A DNA stretch of 64,000 bases from Gluconobacter cadivus (GTDB taxonomy: Bacteria > Pseudomonadota > Alphaproteobacteria > Acetobacterales > Acetobacteraceae), in the NCBI RefSeq assembly GCF_015244745.1, contig NZ_JABCQI010000006.1, forward strand, positions 1-64,000, written 5' to 3'. Each line of letters opens with the position of its first letter. The first letter of the stretch is position 1. Positions 54,659 to 62,223 of this stretch are shown one piece after another. A program made the position numbers and the translations under genes. Below the pieces are notes generated by a model. That model saw only the letters and a program-made list of their open reading frames with translations, was not told where the DNA came from and searched no databases.

Positions 54659-55225
54659 TTAAAGTTGATTGGCTATACGTCGATAGGAGTGTGCCAGACT
54701 AACATTCATCTCCGCGACGCTCTCAGAAAATGCCGTCGCATCCTGAGTGACCTGCGTAATCGTCAATAGATCTGTATTCGAATGAATTGTTGTCGTGGAC
54801 GGAATATAAAACTGCTCCGGCAAGACGCAGTCTTCGACAACGGAGTTATGCCTTACCACGCAACCCCGTTCGACCGTGCAGTTGAAGATCACGGAATTGA
54901 AGCCTATGAATACCTCGTCTCCAACAGCGCAGGGACCGTGAATGATCGAGCGATGTGCAATGGACGTGCGCGACCCGATCGTCACGGCCGCGCCATCTTT
55001 TGAGTGGATGACCACACCGTCTTGAATGTTCGACCCACTCCCGATCCGGATGGGCTCGACATGGCCGTCTTCATCGGCTTCATCGGCGCGAATAACGGCA
55101 TAGGGACCGATGAAGACATCGTCCTCGACAATCACATGACCGCACAGGATCGCGGTCGGGTCGATAAAGGCGCTTTCAGAAACTACGGGGAAATCACCAC
55201 GTGGATTTGGTCTCAGCATAGCCAC
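54659..55225 (-). CDS. gamma-class carbonic anhydrase-like protein
   Basis: A 188-residue left-handed beta-helix (hexapeptide-repeat) protein: AFIDPTAILCGHVIVEDDVF, IQDGVVIHSKDGAAVTIGSR, TSIAHRSIIHGPCAVGDEVF and CVVRHNSVVEDCVLP. The three metal-ligand histidines of the gamma family are present (about His74, His91, His96). Gamma enzymes accept Fe2+ or Co2+ as well as Zn2+, and are found in Zur regulons as stand-ins for zinc-only beta enzymes. It is the last gene of the minus-strand zinc-starvation operon, 11 bp after the alcohol dehydrogenase gene. Confidence 0.88.
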   Translation of the reverse strand: MAMLRPNPRGDFPVVSESAFIDPTAILCGHVIVEDDVFIGPYAVIRADEADEDGHVEPIRIGSGSNIQDGVVIHSKDGAAVTIGSRTSIAHRSIIHGPCAVGDEVFIGFNSVIFNCTVERGCVVRHNSVVEDCVLPEQFYIPSTTTIHSNTDLLTITQVTQDATAFSESVAEMNVSLAHSYRRIANQL

Positions 55226-55236
55226 ATTTCGTCTCC

Positions 55237-56400
55237 TTAAAGATCGGTCAGAATTTTGCCAGGTAGGTCATTCGACATGGTTTCGCCCGGCTGATAATGC
55301 ATGACAGAGCGAATGGCCTCTCCCCGATGCAGAAGATCAAATGCCGTATTGATCCGGTCATGAGTCATGTTGTGGGTGATGTAAGGGTCAACGCTAAACT
55401 TCCCCGCCAGCCATTCATCGACCATACCGGGTAACTGCGAACGCCCTTTTACACCCCCAAAGGCCGTGCCCCGCCAGACCCGTCCCGTGATCAGCTGGAA
55501 AGGCCGCGTCGAGATCTCCTCGCCAGCCCCAGCGACACCGATGACTGTGCATTCACCCCAGCCTTTATGGCAACACTCAAGGGCCGCTCGCATGACATCG
55601 ACCCGACCGATCGCCTCAAAGGAATAATCCACGCCGCCACCCGTCATCTCCACGATAACTTTCTGGATTGGATCGGTATGATCGGTCGGATTGACGAGAT
55701 CGGTCGCCCCCAGATTTCGGGCCAGCAGGAACTTCGCCGGATTGGTGTCGATGCCGATGATCCTTGCAGCACCGGCCATGACAGCCCCCTGAATGACGGC
55801 CATGCCGATCGCACCGAGACCAAAGACGGCCACAGTCGATCCCGCTTCCACTTTCGCGGCGTTCCGCACGGCTCCCATACCTGTCGGGACGGCGCACCCC
55901 ATGACGCTGGCTTTCGCAAGCGGCGCCTCTTTGGTGATCTTCGCCACGGCAATTTCGGGCAGCACGGTATATTCGCTGAACGTGCTGGTGCCCATGTAAT
56001 GAAAGATCTGGCGGCCCTTGTATGAAAAACGGCTGGTGCCGTCTGGCATCAGACCGAGCGCCTGTGTCTCGCGGATAGTCGAGCAGAGATTGGTTTTGCC
56101 CGAACGGATCATCGGGCAGTTCGGGTCTTCGGGAATATAGAGCGGAATGACATGATCACCCGGAGCAACAGAGGTAACACCTTTACCCACATCCTCGACG
56201 ATCCCGACCCCCTCGTGACCGAGAATACATGGAAAACGTCCTTCCGGATCATGCCCCGACAGGGTAAACATATCCGTATGACACAGGCTCGTGGTCACGA
56301 TACGGACCAGAACCTCGCCGTCTTTCGGGCCTTCGAGATCAACCAGATCGATCTCAAGCGGCATGTTAGGTTCCCACGCAATTGCAGCTCGGGTTTTCAT
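55237..56400 (-). CDS. class III alcohol dehydrogenase paralogue lacking full structural-zinc site
   Basis: A 387-residue zinc alcohol dehydrogenase of the S-(hydroxymethyl)glutathione/formaldehyde dehydrogenase group. Catalytic-zinc ligands are kept: Cys40 in [10 protein letters not shown], His62-Glu63 in ILGHEGVG and Cys169 in [12 protein letters not shown] motif [16 protein letters not shown]. The lobe that normally holds a structural zinc with four cysteines (ECxxCxxCxSGKTNLC) reads [16 protein letters not shown], with Cys replaced by Asp92 and Ile98. ATG at 56400 has GAGGA 8 nt upstream. Its place in a Zur-type operon suggests a zinc-saving replacement enzyme (inference). Confidence 0.9.
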
Positions 56401-56436: not shown

Positions 56437-57666
56437 TCAGGCCGACTCAAGACTTTCCGACTGGCGACGCCAAAGCGGAAAGGGATCAGGGAGGCGTGCA
56501 TAGCGTGACGGCTCAAAAGCGGTGTCTCCGAGATCTGGAACAAGACAGGCATCAAGTTCCTGCCGAAGACCGGATTCATCCATATCTCCATTGCCGATAA
56601 AGACGATTTCCTGACGACGGTCGCCGAAGACCGGATCCCAGTTTCCCAATACGAAGTCGCGCCACTGATCAGTATCCGGCCACTGATTTTTCGGAATCGC
56701 AGCCCACCACAGCCCCATCGCCTCGCTTCGCACCAGGGCTCCAGCCTGACTCATTTCACCTACCCAGTCCGGGCGCGTAGCTAACCAGAAATGGCCCTTG
56801 GCGCGTACGACGCCAGACCAGTTCCGATCAAGGAAGGCCTGGAATTTCGCTGGTTCGAACGGACGGCGCGCACGATAGACAAAATTACGGATGCCATATT
56901 CGTCTGTTTCAGGAACATGGCTGGAAAAGCCGTAAAGTTCCTTGAACCACAACGGATGCTGATGTGCCTTGTCGTAATCGAAACGGCCTGTATTCAGGAT
57001 CTGCTCAACAGGAACAGACCCCATGTCGGTCTCGATGATATCAGCGTCCGAATTCAACGCACGAATGATCTGCCTCGCCGCATCAACCTGATCCGATGTA
57101 GCGGTGGAGACTTTGTTGATCACCACGACATCCGCAAACTCGATCTGCTGGACGAGCAGATCGACCAGGGCACGCTCGTCGTCCTCCCCGGCCGTTTCAC
57201 CCCGATCCTTCAGGAAATCGCTGGAAGAATAATCGCGCAGGAGATTGACCGCATCAACGACCGTCACCATCGTATCCAGCCGTGCGATATCGCTCAGGCT
57301 GACGCCACTCTCGTCACGAAACTCAAACGTTGCGGCTACGGGCAGCGGTTCCGCAATGCCTGTAGATTCAATGAGCAGATAATCGAATTTCCGCTCCTCT
57401 GCGAGCCTCCGTACTTCCTGCAACAAATCGTCGCGGAGCGTGCAGCAAATGCAGCCATTGGTCATTTCAACCAACTTTTCATCGGTACGCGACAGATTGC
57501 TGCCGCCCTCGCGCACCAGAGCGGCGTCAATGTTGACCTCGCTCATATCATTCACGATGACCGCGACCTTATAGCCCTGGCGGTTATTCAGTACGTGATT
57601 GAGCAAGGTCGTCTTTCCCGCGCCAAGAAAGCCGGACAGCACGGTAACGGGAAGTTGGTCATCCAT
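56437..57666 (-). CDS. COG0523-family GTPase, putative zinc metallochaperone
   Basis: A 409-residue CobW/COG0523 G3E GTPase: Walker [18 protein letters not shown] (about 12-19), the metal-binding CxCC in [15 protein letters not shown] (72-75), [17 protein letters not shown], the NKVS-type guanine motif in [14 protein letters not shown], and a C-terminal CobW domain ([20 protein letters not shown]). The zinc-regulated subgroup is thought to hand zinc to client enzymes during starvation. ATG at 57666 has AGAGGA upstream. It lies 13 bp after the HisI gene and 36 bp before the dehydrogenase start, in the middle of the operon. Confidence 0.92.
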
Positions 57667-57679
57667 GGGGATTTTTCCT

Positions 57680-58189
57680 CTAAAGCTTTGTCGGGTTTGG
57701 GGCGTCGCCATAGACGGCGAGCGGATCGAATATTTTGTGCGTTTCGCAAAAGAGGAGTGCTGCCGATGATGACGGAAGGCCTTCCTCAGAAGTGAGATCA
57801 ACACGCCGATAAAAACAGCTTCGATAACCCACATGGCAGTTCGCTCCTGTGCCCGCAGTGTGAACGCGCAGCCAGATCGCGTCCTGATCGTCGTCGATCC
57901 GCATTTCGAGGACATGCTGGACCAGCCCGCTCGTGGCGCCCTTTCGCCAGAGACACTGACGGCTCCGGCTCCAGTAATGCGCCTCACGGGTTGCGATAGT
58001 GCGTGCGAGCGCCTCTGCGTTCATGACGCCAACCATCATGACATCACCGCTTTCTGCGTCCGTTGTGACCACGGTCAGCAGTCCGCTGGCGTCGAAACGT
58101 GGGGCGAGATCGCTCCCCTCCTCGACCTGCTCAATTGAGACGCGCGACCCAAATGCCGTGGACACAGAAGATACAGTTGTGCCCATCAC
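57680..58189 (-). CDS. phosphoribosyl-AMP cyclohydrolase paralogue with altered zinc site
   Basis: A 169-residue HisI-type enzyme, longer than the usual 120-140 owing to both ends. Core: [59 protein letters not shown], then [14 protein letters not shown] and [17 protein letters not shown]. Two of the three zinc cysteines are present (Cys118, Cys125), but the third, within the family's DCDxD metal motif, is Asp100 (DDDQD). The Mg2+ aspartates remain. A HisI paralogue with fewer zinc ligands fits a zinc-starvation backup for histidine synthesis. It overlaps the folE stop by four bases. Confidence 0.87.
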
Positions 58190-58797
58190 ACGCCACCCAT
58201 TCCCGCCATAGTGAAGAACTGGCGCCGCAGAGATTCCGACGTCTCGAACTCGCCCAGCAGGCGGCTGGTCACCATACTCACGCCTGGCTTATGTACTCCG
58301 CGTGTGGTCATGCACTGGTGAGCCGCGTCGATCACGACCGCGACGCCACGCGGTTGAAGCACGCCCTGGATTGTATCCGCGATCTGGGCCGTCAGTTTTT
58401 CCTGGATCTGTAGACGATGGGCGAAGACGTCCACGAGACGCGCCAGCTTGCTGATGCCAACTACCCGCTTGTCGGGCAGATACGCCACATGCGCCTTACC
58501 GATCAGCGGAATGATATGATGCTCGCAATGGGATTCCAGACGGATATCGCGTAGCACCACCATCTCGTTGTAGTTACCGCTCTCTTCGAAGGTCCGCTCC
58601 AGAAGAGCGACCGGGTCGTCATGATATCCCTCGAAAAACTCCTCATAGGCCCGCACCACGCGGTCAGGCGTACCGGCAAGCCCCTCGCGATCAGGATCAT
58701 CACCGGTCCAGGCGAGCAGGGTTCGCACCGCCTCTTCCGCCTGAGCCCGGGTCGGCCGGGTTCTCACTTGCCGTGGAACGTCCATCAGTGTGTCCAT
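58186..58797 (-). CDS. folE: GTP cyclohydrolase I (type IA)
   Basis: A 203-residue GTP cyclohydrolase, the first enzyme of folate synthesis. Seen are [20 protein letters not shown], the zinc site [17 protein letters not shown] (Cys91, His93/94) with [11 protein letters not shown] (Cys162), [20 protein letters not shown] and [11 protein letters not shown]. All zinc ligands are kept, so this is an extra copy rather than the metal-flexible FolE2 type. First gene of the minus-strand operon, starting 25 bp from the Zur box. A second in-frame ATG lies four codons in. Confidence 0.92.
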
Positions 58798-58821: not shown

Positions 58822-58839
58822 GTTATGTTATAACGTAAC
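58822..58839. promoter_or_regulatory. Zur box in the folE/DUF1826 divergent promoter
   Basis: GTTATGTTATAACGTAAC is an 18-bp palindrome with one mismatched pair and matches the GTTATnnnATAAC-type Zur operators of proteobacteria. It lies 25 bp before folE and 40 bp before the DUF1826 gene, so one bound Zur dimer pair could shut both operons when zinc is plentiful. Confidence 0.85.
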
Positions 58840-58878: not shown

Positions 58879-59586
58879 ATGCCCCCTCCCTCACAGCAAC
58901 ATTCTGTCTCGACGGATATGACTCCACCCGCGCGCGCGCCGAAGGAAAGTCTCGGCGCCATGCTATTCATTGAGAGCTGGCCCGCGCCAACAATCGACCC
59001 ACCGGAAAACAGTACTCTGGGCCGTCTTGCACCGCATGTGGTCGCCTGTGCCCACGCGACAGTCGTGATGGATCTGCAGCGACCGGATGTCGATATGGTC
59101 GTGTGGGGGCGCCGGATTCCGGCAACATGGGAAGGAACTCTCACAAACTGCTCACAAGCCCCATCTGCTCTCACTCTCGCCGGCACACCTTCGGAAATCG
59201 CAGATTCCCTTGTAAACCCGGCTTTACATCAGGACTGGTCTCCCCTCATCCTGACTGATGTCAGGGACTTGTCCGCACTGTTCGGTGCGCTGACAGGAGG
59301 CGTCCGGCAGCACATCCAGCTAATAACGCCATCCCGTGGGGAGACTGCGTTCGAGTTGCCCCCCGATGCACTTCGGCTGATCTGCGCCTATGGAAGCGCT
59401 GGACCAGAGTGGTGCGGCAGCCAAAATCCAAAGAGTGGTATTGTCAGTACCCTGACACCGTTCGCAGTAGTGTTCATTAAAGGGGCGGCTGAAGGCAAAC
59501 TCGGATGCCTTCATCGTCTCCCGGCAAATATCGCAAACGGTGCAAGGCCTGGGCCGGTCCTCGTGATGGATACAATTTCCCGATGA
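58879..59586 (+). CDS. DUF1826-family protein
   Basis: A 235-residue protein of the DUF1826 type: HVVACAHATVVMDLQRPDVD, DWSPLILTDVRDLSALFGAL, RQHIQLITPSRGETAFELPP and GCLHRLPANIANGARPGPVL. The family has no known activity but is repeatedly found next to COG0523 chaperones and Zur, as here. Several His and Cys residues (CAHAT, GPEWCG, GCLHR) could bind metal (inference). Its stop overlaps the zur start (ATGA at 59583), so the two are coupled. Confidence 0.75.
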   Translation: MPPPSQQHSVSTDMTPPARAPKESLGAMLFIESWPAPTIDPPENSTLGRLAPHVVACAHATVVMDLQRPDVDMVVWGRRIPATWEGTLTNCSQAPSALTLAGTPSEIADSLVNPALHQDWSPLILTDVRDLSALFGALTGGVRQHIQLITPSRGETAFELPPDALRLICAYGSAGPEWCGSQNPKSGIVSTLTPFAVVFIKGAAEGKLGCLHRLPANIANGARPGPVLVMDTISR

Positions 59587-60080
59587 TAGAGCGTGTCATG
59601 CCGCCGTCTCGCGACGCACGTCAAGGTTGCGATGCCTTCAAAAGGCGGACCACGTCTTTACGGAATGATGTACTCGACGTGCTGACGAAGGCAAACGTCC
59701 CACTTTCGGCTTACGACATCCTACGGTGTGTCAGTCATTCGAATTGCCCGCGGATTGCTCCGACTACAATTTACCGGGCTCTCGGAAAGCTGATTGCCAG
59801 CGGGTTAGTGGGACGGCTCGAAAGTCGAAATGCCTTCGTGCGGATCTGGGCAAACGATCCCTCTCACCTCGTCTACTGTATCTGCGATCGATGTGGTGCC
59901 GCGCAAGCGGTGGAAAATACGCTATCCTGTCAATTGATCGACGCTGCGGCCGAGACCCTTGGATTTCAGGTCCGGCATCGGGTCATCGAAGTTCAGGGCG
60001 TCTGCGCACGATGCAGCGTCTGCCCGTCTTTCTTGCCGACACAACAAAAGCACAAGCTTCCGACACGCGCGCCCAAATGA
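59583..60080 (+). CDS. zur: Fur-family zinc uptake regulator Zur
   Basis: A 165-residue Fur-family repressor: LRNDVLDVLTKANVPLSAYD, HTH region APTTIYRALGKLIASGLVGR, the histidine-containing SHLVYCICDRCGAAQAVE and GVCARCSVCPSF. The two CxxC pairs (Cys101/104 and Cys141/144) form the structural zinc site. Together with its location inside a zinc-starvation cluster this identifies Zur rather than Fur. It autoregulates through the box at 58822. ATG at 59583 was chosen for its overlap with the DUF1826 stop. Confidence 0.88.
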   Translation: MIERVMPPSRDARQGCDAFKRRTTSLRNDVLDVLTKANVPLSAYDILRCVSHSNCPRIAPTTIYRALGKLIASGLVGRLESRNAFVRIWANDPSHLVYCICDRCGAAQAVENTLSCQLIDAAAETLGFQVRHRVIEVQGVCARCSVCPSFLPTQQKHKLPTRAPK

Positions 60081-60120: not shown

Positions 60121-61989
60121 ATGTTACCGACCACCATCTCTTCCCGTCCTTCATCCCACCCACCAAAGGATATGCTCGCCTGCCGTGTGAACGGCATTAT
60201 CAGCGATCTTTCCTCCACAACTGGTGACCAACGGGCTGACCCTGTCTTCCGGTCGGACGCCGATGCGCTTTCCCTGATCCGTCACGACACGGCCCATGTT
60301 CTGGCACAAGCCGTCAGTGAGTTGTATCCCGGCACCGCGCTTGCGACAGGGCCCGCCACGGAACAGGGATTTTTCTACGATTTCGCCGCTGAGCACGCTT
60401 TCACCGATGATGACATCGCTCGGATCGACGCACGGATGCACGAGATCGTCGACCGGGACGAGCCGATCATCCGGGAGGAGTGGGATCGCGAGAGAGCACT
60501 TGCCTGGTGCCGGGAGAATGGACAGCCCTACAAGGCCGAGATCATCATGTCCCTGCCTGCTGATGCCACCCTGAGCTTTTATCGACAAGGCGACTTCGTC
60601 GATCTCTGCCGAGGGCCACATCTCGTCAGCACAGGACAGATCGGACACGCCTTTCGACTTCTCGGTACGGCTGGTGCCTATTGGAAAGGTGATCGAAGCA
60701 ATCCAATGCTGCAGAGGATTCACGGAACGGCCTGTCGTGATGCCGACGAACTCGCCGCGTGGGAGCAGCGTCAGGAAGCAGCAGCACGGCGTGATCATCG
60801 TCGTCTCGGCCGCGAGATGGATCTGTTCCATTTCCAGGCCGAAGCTCCAGGCGCGGTGTTCTGGCATCCGAACGGCTGGACACTGTTCCAGACCCTGCTC
60901 GCTTATCTGCGCGAACGTCAGAAGGCCGAGAACTATGTGGAGATCAATACGCCCGACATCATGGATCTGTCGCTCTGGCAGGCCTCTGGCCATTGGGAAA
61001 AATTCGGGGAGAGCATGTTCACCACCGAAACCGAAGGCCGTACCTACGCCCTCAAGCCTATGAATTGCCCCGGTGGTGTGCAGGTTTTCCGCCAAGGCCT
61101 GAAGAGCTATCGCGACCTGCCCCTGCGGATGGCCGAATTCGGCAAAGTCCATCGCTTTGAACCGTCAGGAGCGTTGCATGGCCTGATGCGCGTACGTGCA
61201 TTCACGCAGGATGACGCACATATTTTCTGCACACCGGAACAGATGGAGGCCGAGACGCAGCGGATCTGCCATCTCGTGCTTTCGATCTATAAGGACTTCG
61301 GTTTTGAAGATGTCCGTATCAAATTTTCCGACCGGCCTGACAAACGTGTCGGATCGGACGAGATCTGGGATCGCTCGGAGGAAGCGTTACAGCGCGGGGT
61401 CGAAGCTTCAGGCCTCTCCTACACACGCAATCCAGGAGAAGGCGCTTTTTACGGTCCCAAGCTGGAGTTCGTACTGCGTGATGCAATCGGCCGGGACTGG
61501 CAGTGCGGTACCGTTCAGGTCGATCTCAATCTGCCTCAGCGTCTGGACGCGCATTATATTGGCGCGGATGGAGAAAAACATCCGCCCGTCATGCTGCATC
61601 GCGCCCTGTTCGGTTCGCTTGAACGTTTCATCGGCATTCTCCTTGAACACCATGCCGGCCACCTGCCTTTCTGGCTTGCACCCATTCAGGTCGTGGTGGC
61701 AACAATCACCGGCGCTGCAGACGATTACGCAGTCGATCTGATTAAAGCGCTCCGCCAACGTGGAGTCCGAGCAGAGCCCGATTTGCGCAATGAAAAAATC
61801 GCTTACAAAATCCGCGAACACAGCCTCGCGAAAGTACCCATGTTGCTGATCGTCGGGAAGAAGGAAGCACAGGCAGGCACCGTGTCTATCCGGGAATATG
61901 GAAGATCAGAAACACCAATGTTGGACATGGAATCCGCTATCAATTTAATCGCCAAAGCATCGGAGTCTCGTTTGGCACAAGTCTTTTAG
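60121..61989 (+). CDS. thrS: threonyl-tRNA synthetase (Zur-island copy, short N-terminus)
   Basis: A 622-residue threonyl-tRNA synthetase. The editing domain starts LIRHDTAHVLAQAVSELYPG (His55, His59) and includes DFVDLCRGPHL (Cys163, His167); the catalytic domain has LKPMNCPGGVQVFRQ (Cys316), FTQDDAHIFC (His367) and PVMLHRALFGSLERF (His493), the three zinc ligands; the anticodon domain follows. The N-terminal TGS domain is only partial (about 30 residues instead of about 60). Zinc ligands are intact, so it is not a zinc-free form; it probably serves as an extra or high-affinity copy. It lies 40 bp after zur. Confidence 0.93.
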   Translation: MLPTTISSRPSSHPPKDMLACRVNGIISDLSSTTGDQRADPVFRSDADALSLIRHDTAHVLAQAVSELYPGTALATGPATEQGFFYDFAAEHAFTDDDIARIDARMHEIVDRDEPIIREEWDRERALAWCRENGQPYKAEIIMSLPADATLSFYRQGDFVDLCRGPHLVSTGQIGHAFRLLGTAGAYWKGDRSNPMLQRIHGTACRDADELAAWEQRQEAAARRDHRRLGREMDLFHFQAEAPGAVFWHPNGWTLFQTLLAYLRERQKAENYVEINTPDIMDLSLWQASGHWEKFGESMFTTETEGRTYALKPMNCPGGVQVFRQGLKSYRDLPLRMAEFGKVHRFEPSGALHGLMRVRAFTQDDAHIFCTPEQMEAETQRICHLVLSIYKDFGFEDVRIKFSDRPDKRVGSDEIWDRSEEALQRGVEASGLSYTRNPGEGAFYGPKLEFVLRDAIGRDWQCGTVQVDLNLPQRLDAHYIGADGEKHPPVMLHRALFGSLERFIGILLEHHAGHLPFWLAPIQVVVATITGAADDYAVDLIKALRQRGVRAEPDLRNEKIAYKIREHSLAKVPMLLIVGKKEAQAGTVSIREYGRSETPMLDMESAINLIAKASESRLAQVF

Positions 61990-62205: not shown

Positions 62206-62223
62206 GTGATGTTATAACGTAAT
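62206..62223. promoter_or_regulatory. second Zur-like box
   Basis: GTGATGTTATAACGTAAT matches the box at 58822 at 16 of 18 positions, including the whole GTTATAACGTAA part. It lies 141 bp before the S46 peptidase gene and 217 bp after thrS, in an AT-rich gap (61990-62363) that contains no gene. Confidence 0.7.

Follow-up and report, generated by a model that had tools for sequence, protein, structure and literature searches.

Introduction

Zur-controlled paralogues that spare zinc are known already. In the sections of their 2009 paper drawn on here, Haas et al. name nine zinc-enzyme families with Zur-linked paralogues and report HisI paralogues with conserved zinc residues (PMC2770081); the word 'dehydrogenase' is absent from the main text of that paper. 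A 2018 review, in the sections used here, notes that many of the enzymes under Zur regulation are paralogues free of zinc, alcohol dehydrogenase being among those named (PMC6103462). It lists two alcohol dehydrogenase genes in Zur regulons, adhA of Corynebacterium and adhP of Neisseria meningitidis, which in this resemble the gene studied here; the same sections describe them neither as class III nor as having lost the structural site only, and it is by this description alone that we set them apart (PMC6103462).

In the structural part of the proposal, the closest parallels are DksA2 and the Cys-less ribosomal proteins, paralogues without the structural-zinc Cys residues that lie in zinc-starvation clusters with COG0523, as described in the sections of PMC2770081 and PMC6103462 available to us. 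Unlike these proteins, the enzyme described below (hereafter D-type) is an oxidoreductase and can be expected to depend on its catalytic zinc as before, which would make the saving partial. Medium-chain dehydrogenases with one zinc are well known, for example sorbitol dehydrogenase and the secondary alcohol dehydrogenases of Thermoanaerobacter and Clostridium. These carry catalytic zinc without structural zinc, as we propose for the D-type enzyme, but they are not class III, and we know of none that is a zinc-starvation paralogue of a two-zinc enzyme.

The D-type enzyme shares with canonical class III alcohol dehydrogenase (TIGR02818; human chi-chi ADH, 1m6h) a score over the family cut-off, the catalytic Cys/His/Cys and the glutathione-adduct positions, whereas two of its four structural Cys are replaced, residues near the catalytic Cys are specific to its clade, its C-terminus is longer and a Zur-type box accompanies it. 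In mammalian alcohol dehydrogenase the structural zinc is crucial for structure and dimer formation, according to the part of PMC4960878 used here. Our literature search, which covered open-licence papers and was not exhaustive, found no description of a zinc-regulated class III alcohol dehydrogenase. Nor did it turn up a described one-zinc class III enzyme, in agreement with the preliminary description of this locus, whose author knew of none; a class III case with the saving limited to the structural zinc was likewise not found described.

Results

The operon and its surroundings

The window is the whole stretch of DNA analysed, 64,000 nucleotides in length. Its adhC gene belongs to an operon in the order folE-hisI-zigA-adhC-carbonic anhydrase, which lies within a zinc cluster composed of the following features.

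54659-55225, minus strand: gamma-class carbonic anhydrase-like hexapeptide protein, the operon's last gene (ORF and profile; carbonate dehydratase in the G. albidus annotation)
55237-56400, minus strand: D-type class III alcohol dehydrogenase (adhC), 387 aa (ORF and profile search)
56083-56130, minus strand: structural-zinc lobe E91-C106, with Asp92 and Ile98 replacing Cys (translation and alignment)
56437-57666, minus strand: zigA, COG0523 zinc metallochaperone GTPase, 36 bases before adhC (NF038288 over cut-off)
57680-58189, minus strand: hisI paralogue, phosphoribosyl-AMP cyclohydrolase (ORF, profile and alignment)
58186-58797, minus strand: folE, GTP cyclohydrolase I, the operon's first gene (ORF and profile)
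58822-58839: Zur-type palindrome; the folE ORF starts 24 bases further on, at 58797 (palindrome and motif search)
58960-59586, plus strand: DUF1826 protein, divergent from the operon (ORF and profile)
59505-60080, plus strand: Fur/Zur-family regulator (Pfam FUR; best NCBIfam match Zur, below cut-off)
60121-61989, plus strand: thrS, threonyl-tRNA synthetase, within the zinc cluster (ORF and profile)

The HisI paralogue of the operon has itself exchanged a Cys for Asp, reading IDDDQD in place of the DCD found both in the chromosomal HisI of the host (L087) and in the solved enzyme 1zps. We take the exchanged Cys to be one of three zinc ligands. The same Asp is found in HisI of L092, L093 and L119, and Cys in HisI of L011 and L142. 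In this exchange the operon protein differs from the HisI paralogues that PMC2770081, in the sections available to us, gives as having their zinc residues conserved.

Two further observations concern the DNA beyond thrS. A second Zur-like site lies at 62206-62223 (one mismatch at 62209-62223), about 140 bp before the ORF L086:2365, which corresponds to an S46 family peptidase annotated in G. albidus. About 10 kb past the window adhC, a canonical adhC adjoins hxlA/hxlB-type genes (L086:6431-8783), which are genes of formaldehyde assimilation; this formaldehyde cluster and the zinc cluster are also located together on a G. albidus plasmid typed as conjugative.

The window enzyme by profile and copy

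The window adhC product matches the equivalog TIGR02818 over profile positions 1-368 of 368 with 622.7 bits, against a curated cut-off of 543.95 in the NCBIfam profile search, and carries the NCBIfam name S-(hydroxymethyl)glutathione dehydrogenase/class III alcohol dehydrogenase. Judged from its sequence, it is a class III enzyme, predicted to oxidise S-hydroxymethylglutathione with NAD. The same gene is present in seven further genomes of the genus at 98.7-100% identity and with an identical lobe, and in three Gluconobacter plasmid records at 100, 100 and 97.7% (the third in two pieces).

A broken structural site beside an intact catalytic site

The lobe of canonical class III enzymes follows the pattern C-x2-C-x2-C-x7-C. 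In the window enzyme (residues 91-106) it reads D/C/I/C where the canonical lobe reads C/C/C/C, so that the first and third of the four structural ligands are gone and Cys95 and Cys106 are retained. The replacements are Asp92, with codon 56127-56125, and Ile98, with codon 56109-56107. Both had been noticed in the preliminary description and are borne out by translation, codons and alignment, as is its statement that the three catalytic-zinc ligands are intact: C40, H62 and C169 are present, and they are invariant in all 37 genes of the clade introduced below as well as in 75 of 75 canonical alignment rows.

Further positions are kept as well. T42, D51, E53, E63 and R364 are invariant across the 37 clade and 75 canonical rows, K279 is found in 37 of 37 clade rows and 73 of 75 canonical rows, and R110 is invariant in the 37 rows of a separate clade alignment. 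These residues (T42, D51, E53, E63, R110, K279 and R364) correspond to T46, D55, E57, E67, R114, K283 and R368 of human class III alcohol dehydrogenase, at a constant offset of 4, and it is from the human class III numbering that we take the catalytic-zinc and glutathione-adduct roles of the conserved positions. By sequence, then, the catalytic site is intact and the structural site beside it is broken.

The D/C/I lobe is present in 37 of 37 clade genes, and all four Cys are present in 92 of the 92 canonical genes counted alongside. An alternative is that the enzyme is an extra copy which still binds two zincs, through Asp92, Cys95 and Cys106 plus a water or in some other arrangement, and that Zur control serves to raise the amount of enzyme. 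Cys95 is conserved in 37/37 and Cys106 in 35/37 D-type rows, and an archaeal alcohol dehydrogenase has an acidic ligand at the first structural position, both of which would favour such a site. The sections of Haas et al. used here also suggest that Zur-linked paralogues which retain their zinc residues might serve to provide extra copies (PMC2770081). Against this, Ile98 is unable to bind zinc and is invariant (37/37), and Cys106 has been replaced by Ser in two clade genes, those of Erwinia (L011) and of genome G858 (L158), which stand apart in the tree, so that this ligand was lost on two separated branches. Such a loss is expected if the lobe no longer binds metal. We regard two-zinc binding as unlikely, though some residual metal binding through the Asp/Cys/Cys of the lobe may persist.

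Structure prediction with AlphaFold2 gave near-identical secondary structure for the D-type enzyme and the canonical enzyme L019, and the models fail to tell the two lobes apart: ten-residue pLDDT means over residues 91-120 were 65-80 for D-type and 63-75 for L019. Ten distinct PDB chains matched the D-lobe peptide at E<=0.001, with four Cys in the five alignments that were read.

Distribution and other fixed differences of the D-type clade

A protein scan of GTDB genomes with the window adhC gave 585 loci, of which the best 80 were taken. The seven most similar among these (77-82% identity) all have the D/C/I lobe and come from a Hyphomicrobiales MAG, Ruegeria, Pseudooceanicola, Celeribacter, Salipiger, Erwinia and Sagittula. 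The remaining 73 have four Cys in 72 cases and D/C/I in one, L077 (70% identity). Plasmid records matching at 80% or more number nine, comprising the three from Gluconobacter (97.7-100%) and six from Rhodobacterales (80-82%); lobes were read in the six Rhodobacterales records and in G. albidus. When the lobe peptide itself was searched against the plasmid collection, the nine D-type records ranked top (82.5-92.5% identity) and the next rows reached at most 80%.

At E<=1e-180, a cut-off too strict for enzymes like L077 (3.8e-177), matches occur in 2 of 385 genomes of the class and 8 of 26 genomes of the genus (host included in both), in 3 of 17 genomes of family f16 and in 21 of 201 genomes of family f201. 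Of the last, 20 are D-type and one, from G950, is canonical. Because the G950 enzyme groups with Halomonas in the tree, family f201 is probably Halomonadaceae. A 40-residue lobe query against 398 genomes of the phylum matched 11 of these genomes at E<=1e-16, D-type in 2 (host included). The best DNA matches in E. coli to a D-type gene, at 67.6% identity, are annotated as class III alcohol dehydrogenase.

Altogether the D-type set comprises 37 genes (36 distinct proteins) from alpha- and gammaproteobacteria, and in a tree of 113 proteins its 37 rows form a single clade with an SH-aLRT support of 100; many of these rows are closely related, and they do not represent 37 independent events. A sequencing error or a peculiarity of Gluconobacter is ruled out as the cause of the altered lobe by this clade of many genomes. 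One D-type copy, L159 of genome G941, has an internal stop, and therefore a D-type gene can be lost.

Beyond the lobe, T36, L39, A164, M167, A170, P172, R179 and M200 are fixed in 37/37 D-type rows, and few or none of the 75 canonical rows share them. D-type proteins are also longer, at 381-394 aa (the lower bound being the broken L159, with its length read from its match) against 369-375 aa in canonical enzymes. Residues 371-387 of the window enzyme form a C-terminal tail with positions that are conserved in D-type and absent from canonical enzymes; this tail might compensate for the lost lobe zinc. The substitutions that lie beside both catalytic Cys (T36, L39, A164, M167, A170 and P172) raise the further thought that the catalytic site has been retuned as well, for a different metal or for far scarcer zinc, leaving an enzyme that needs little or no zinc. 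The COG0523 GTPase in the operon would fit such a change, and the retention of all three catalytic ligands (37/37) speaks against it; we hold it to be very unlikely.

Zur-type boxes upstream of D-type genes

Zur binding in P. denitrificans has been tested by EMSA, and the sites are given in the sections of PMC5387054 used here; 'dehydrogenase' is absent from the main text of that paper. Our motif summarises these sites. As first written, GTWAYRTAATAACAT, it finds the window site at 58825-58839 with one mismatch, the only site with one or none in 64 kb. The motif was widened to W at its eighth position after the window box had been seen, and with this version 58825-58839 matches without mismatch and is again the only such site in the window. 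Five mononucleotide shuffles of the window searched with the widened motif held a single site with 2 mismatches and none with fewer.

With the widened motif, a box with at most two mismatches lies within 200 bp upstream of 27 of the 37 D-type genes, a count in which the window operon is represented by its copy in G414 (L120). The corresponding figures are 0/20 for canonical adhC of the same genomes (20 genes from 19 genomes), 1/72 for other canonical genes and 0.2% in mononucleotide shuffles of the D-type upstream regions. With the original motif the 200-bp counts are 22/37 for D-type, 0/20 for same-genome canonical and 1/72 for other canonical genes. A count over 150 bp with up to three mismatches and with L077 included gave 11/14 for D-lobe genes vs 1/72 canonical. 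In many relatives adhC stands directly behind a Zur-type box of its own, and in Paracoccus sp. MA one of the P. denitrificans sites from PMC5387054 reappears unchanged 51 bp upstream of adhC.

A gene for a DJ-1/PfpI-AraC-type regulator (L148:4820-5824, and in most Rhodobacterales loci) is divergent from the D-type adhC, and the Zur-type box lies in its short promoter region, a hint that control may be dual.

Zinc genes around D-type loci

For the ten D-type genes without a close box, a zinc link is given by an operon box, a weaker palindrome or the neighbouring genes. L006 has a 0-mismatch box ahead of a COG0523-DUF1826-adhC run, and L120 is the window operon in another genome. L008, L010 and L091 each have a palindrome at -46/-47 (3, 4 and 3 mismatches respectively), and their surroundings contain DUF1826 plus ThrS, HisI or COG0523 genes. 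L117 has a 1-mismatch box beyond DUF1826; in L118, with the same protein, the contig edge falls inside DUF1826. DUF1826, HisI, FolE, a Zur-like gene, COG0523 and CysS surround L119. Finally, at L156 and L158, adhC directly follows a DksA-family gene (Pfam DksA_N and zf-dskA_traR) that is preceded by a 1-mismatch box, and the two DksA-family genes (L156:5440-5892 and L158:7223-7717) retain 2 and 1 Cys. Some zinc link is thus present at 37 of 37 clade loci.

We also searched the neighbourhoods of 16 D-lobe loci with 24 reference proteins from the window and from plasmids L089, L090 and L093. Specific zinc-starvation genes (DUF1826, COG0523, ThrS, HisI, Zur, ZnuAB or Azt) were found at 14/16; four of the 16 match by construction (L088, a copy of the window cluster, and the three plasmids), and the other loci give 10/12. 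L007, on a short contig, has none of these genes and does have an AraC-type regulator and a 2-mismatch box; the other exception, L077, gave no match at all. In the same search of 72 canonical loci, 16 had any match, at 26-38% identity, to ZnuC/AztA ATPases, AraC or FolE, and there was no match to DUF1826, COG0523, ThrS, HisI, Zur, ZnuA, ZnuB, AztC or AztD.

Annotation of the plasmids is in keeping with this. Three annotated Paracoccus plasmids carry zigA/GTP-binding, aztABCD-type, hisI or cysS genes near adhC, an annotated Sagittula plasmid has znuABC-like genes and a transcriptional repressor there, and the record annotations of Gluconobacter albidus and P. seriniphilus agree with the neighbour search; the Tritonibacter record carries no annotation.

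Canonical paralogues in the same genomes

The host has two more class III enzymes. L002, on the same contig, adjoins genes matching hxlA/hxlB of G. albidus in the same order, and L003 lies on contig 1. Alignment with the canonical adhC of the same genome had been proposed in the preliminary description, and here L002 and L003 both keep all four Cys. A further class III match at E<=1e-110 exists in 22 of 23 other D-type genomes (in G934 as two partial pieces), G148 being the one with no such match at this threshold. Canonical genes read in D-type genomes have four Cys in 20/20, that of G393 (L192) also has four, and the additional class III matches in the genomes of L012 (2), L011 (1) and L007 (1) have four Cys without exception.

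A D-lobe enzyme outside the zinc context

L077:6001-7107, from a Desulfurellaceae MAG, encodes a D-lobe enzyme that is its genome's only class III match at E<=1e-100. No zinc gene and no Zur-type box were found in the 13 kb around it, where HtrA-like, IspH-like and acyl-CoA dehydrogenase-like ORFs were read from translations. A genome can therefore have a D-lobe enzyme as its one class III enzyme, with no evident zinc regulon around it. Among 297 sampled genomes of its phylum, L077 itself is the only lobe match at E<=1e-16. It has canonical-type residues at 36, 39, 164, 166, 167, 170, 172 and 200, and in the tree it is sister to the D-type clade with support 93, in a quick tree method that places it on a long branch. 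Given this sister position, our preferred reading is that the altered lobe predates the gene's entry into Zur control. The other D-type residues may have arisen only after the change of the lobe, an order suggested by the sequences, and L077 would be a possible intermediate.

L077 could also mean that the lobe change is unrelated to zinc supply. On such an account the altered lobe would be neutral or serve another end, such as redox or heat stability or a dimer contact, and the enzyme would have been recruited to the zinc regulon for its function rather than for zinc saving. As the sole class III match without a zinc context L077 is in keeping with this, as are the other fixed changes and longer C-terminus of D-type. 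The link to zinc of some kind throughout the clade (37/37) argues the other way, as does the position of L156 and L158 behind a DksA-family gene that is itself short of zinc-finger Cys, and we consider a neutral or otherwise employed lobe distinctly unlikely.

The preliminary description had held that the same substitutions in housekeeping adhC enzymes outside Zur control would refute a zinc-sparing role. In part this is what L077 shows, with the same substitutions in the sole class III match of its genome. The description's placing of the gene in a Zur-type operon is well supported by sequence, as is the shared ligand loss across a clade linked with zinc-starvation genes.

Discussion

We think it likely that the window adhC is a Zur-repressed, one-zinc class III paralogue that keeps formaldehyde and nitrosothiol detoxification running in zinc starvation. 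The sequences point to this through the loss of two of four ligands with catalytic residues intact, Zur-type boxes and zinc neighbours, canonical paralogues in the same genome, and the grouping of the genes in one clade; from them we infer that Zur binds the box and releases it, that each subunit holds one zinc, that the enzyme is active and that saving zinc is the benefit selected for.

When zinc is plentiful, zinc-loaded Zur would sit on the box at 58822-58839 and silence folE, hisI, zigA, adhC and the carbonic anhydrase gene, and the cell would rely on its canonical two-zinc class III enzymes. When zinc is scarce, Zur would leave the box and the operon would be made. The D-type enzyme, its catalytic zinc site and glutathione-adduct residues kept, would then oxidise S-hydroxymethylglutathione and perhaps reduce S-nitrosoglutathione, with a lobe that folds without structural zinc and saves one zinc per subunit.

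A more far-reaching version is that the D-type enzyme has been rebuilt wholly for zinc starvation. The structural zinc would have been given up and the catalytic site would work on another metal or on far less zinc, perhaps loaded by the COG0523 GTPase, and the plasmid-borne operon would supply formaldehyde detoxification, folate, histidine (through the Asp-for-Cys HisI) and the hydration of CO2, all at little or no cost in zinc. This we regard as improbable.

A natural clade without two structural ligands in a zinc-starvation setting makes the role of that zinc directly testable, and with it how the protein manages without. The EDPxCPxI-like lobe also provides a sequence mark for finding zinc-starvation islands. 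The plasmid-borne copies, one of them on a plasmid typed as conjugative, suggest that the gene set moves between bacteria. If our proposal is true, the detoxification of formaldehyde and nitrosothiols would join the list of functions maintained by bacteria starved of zinc.
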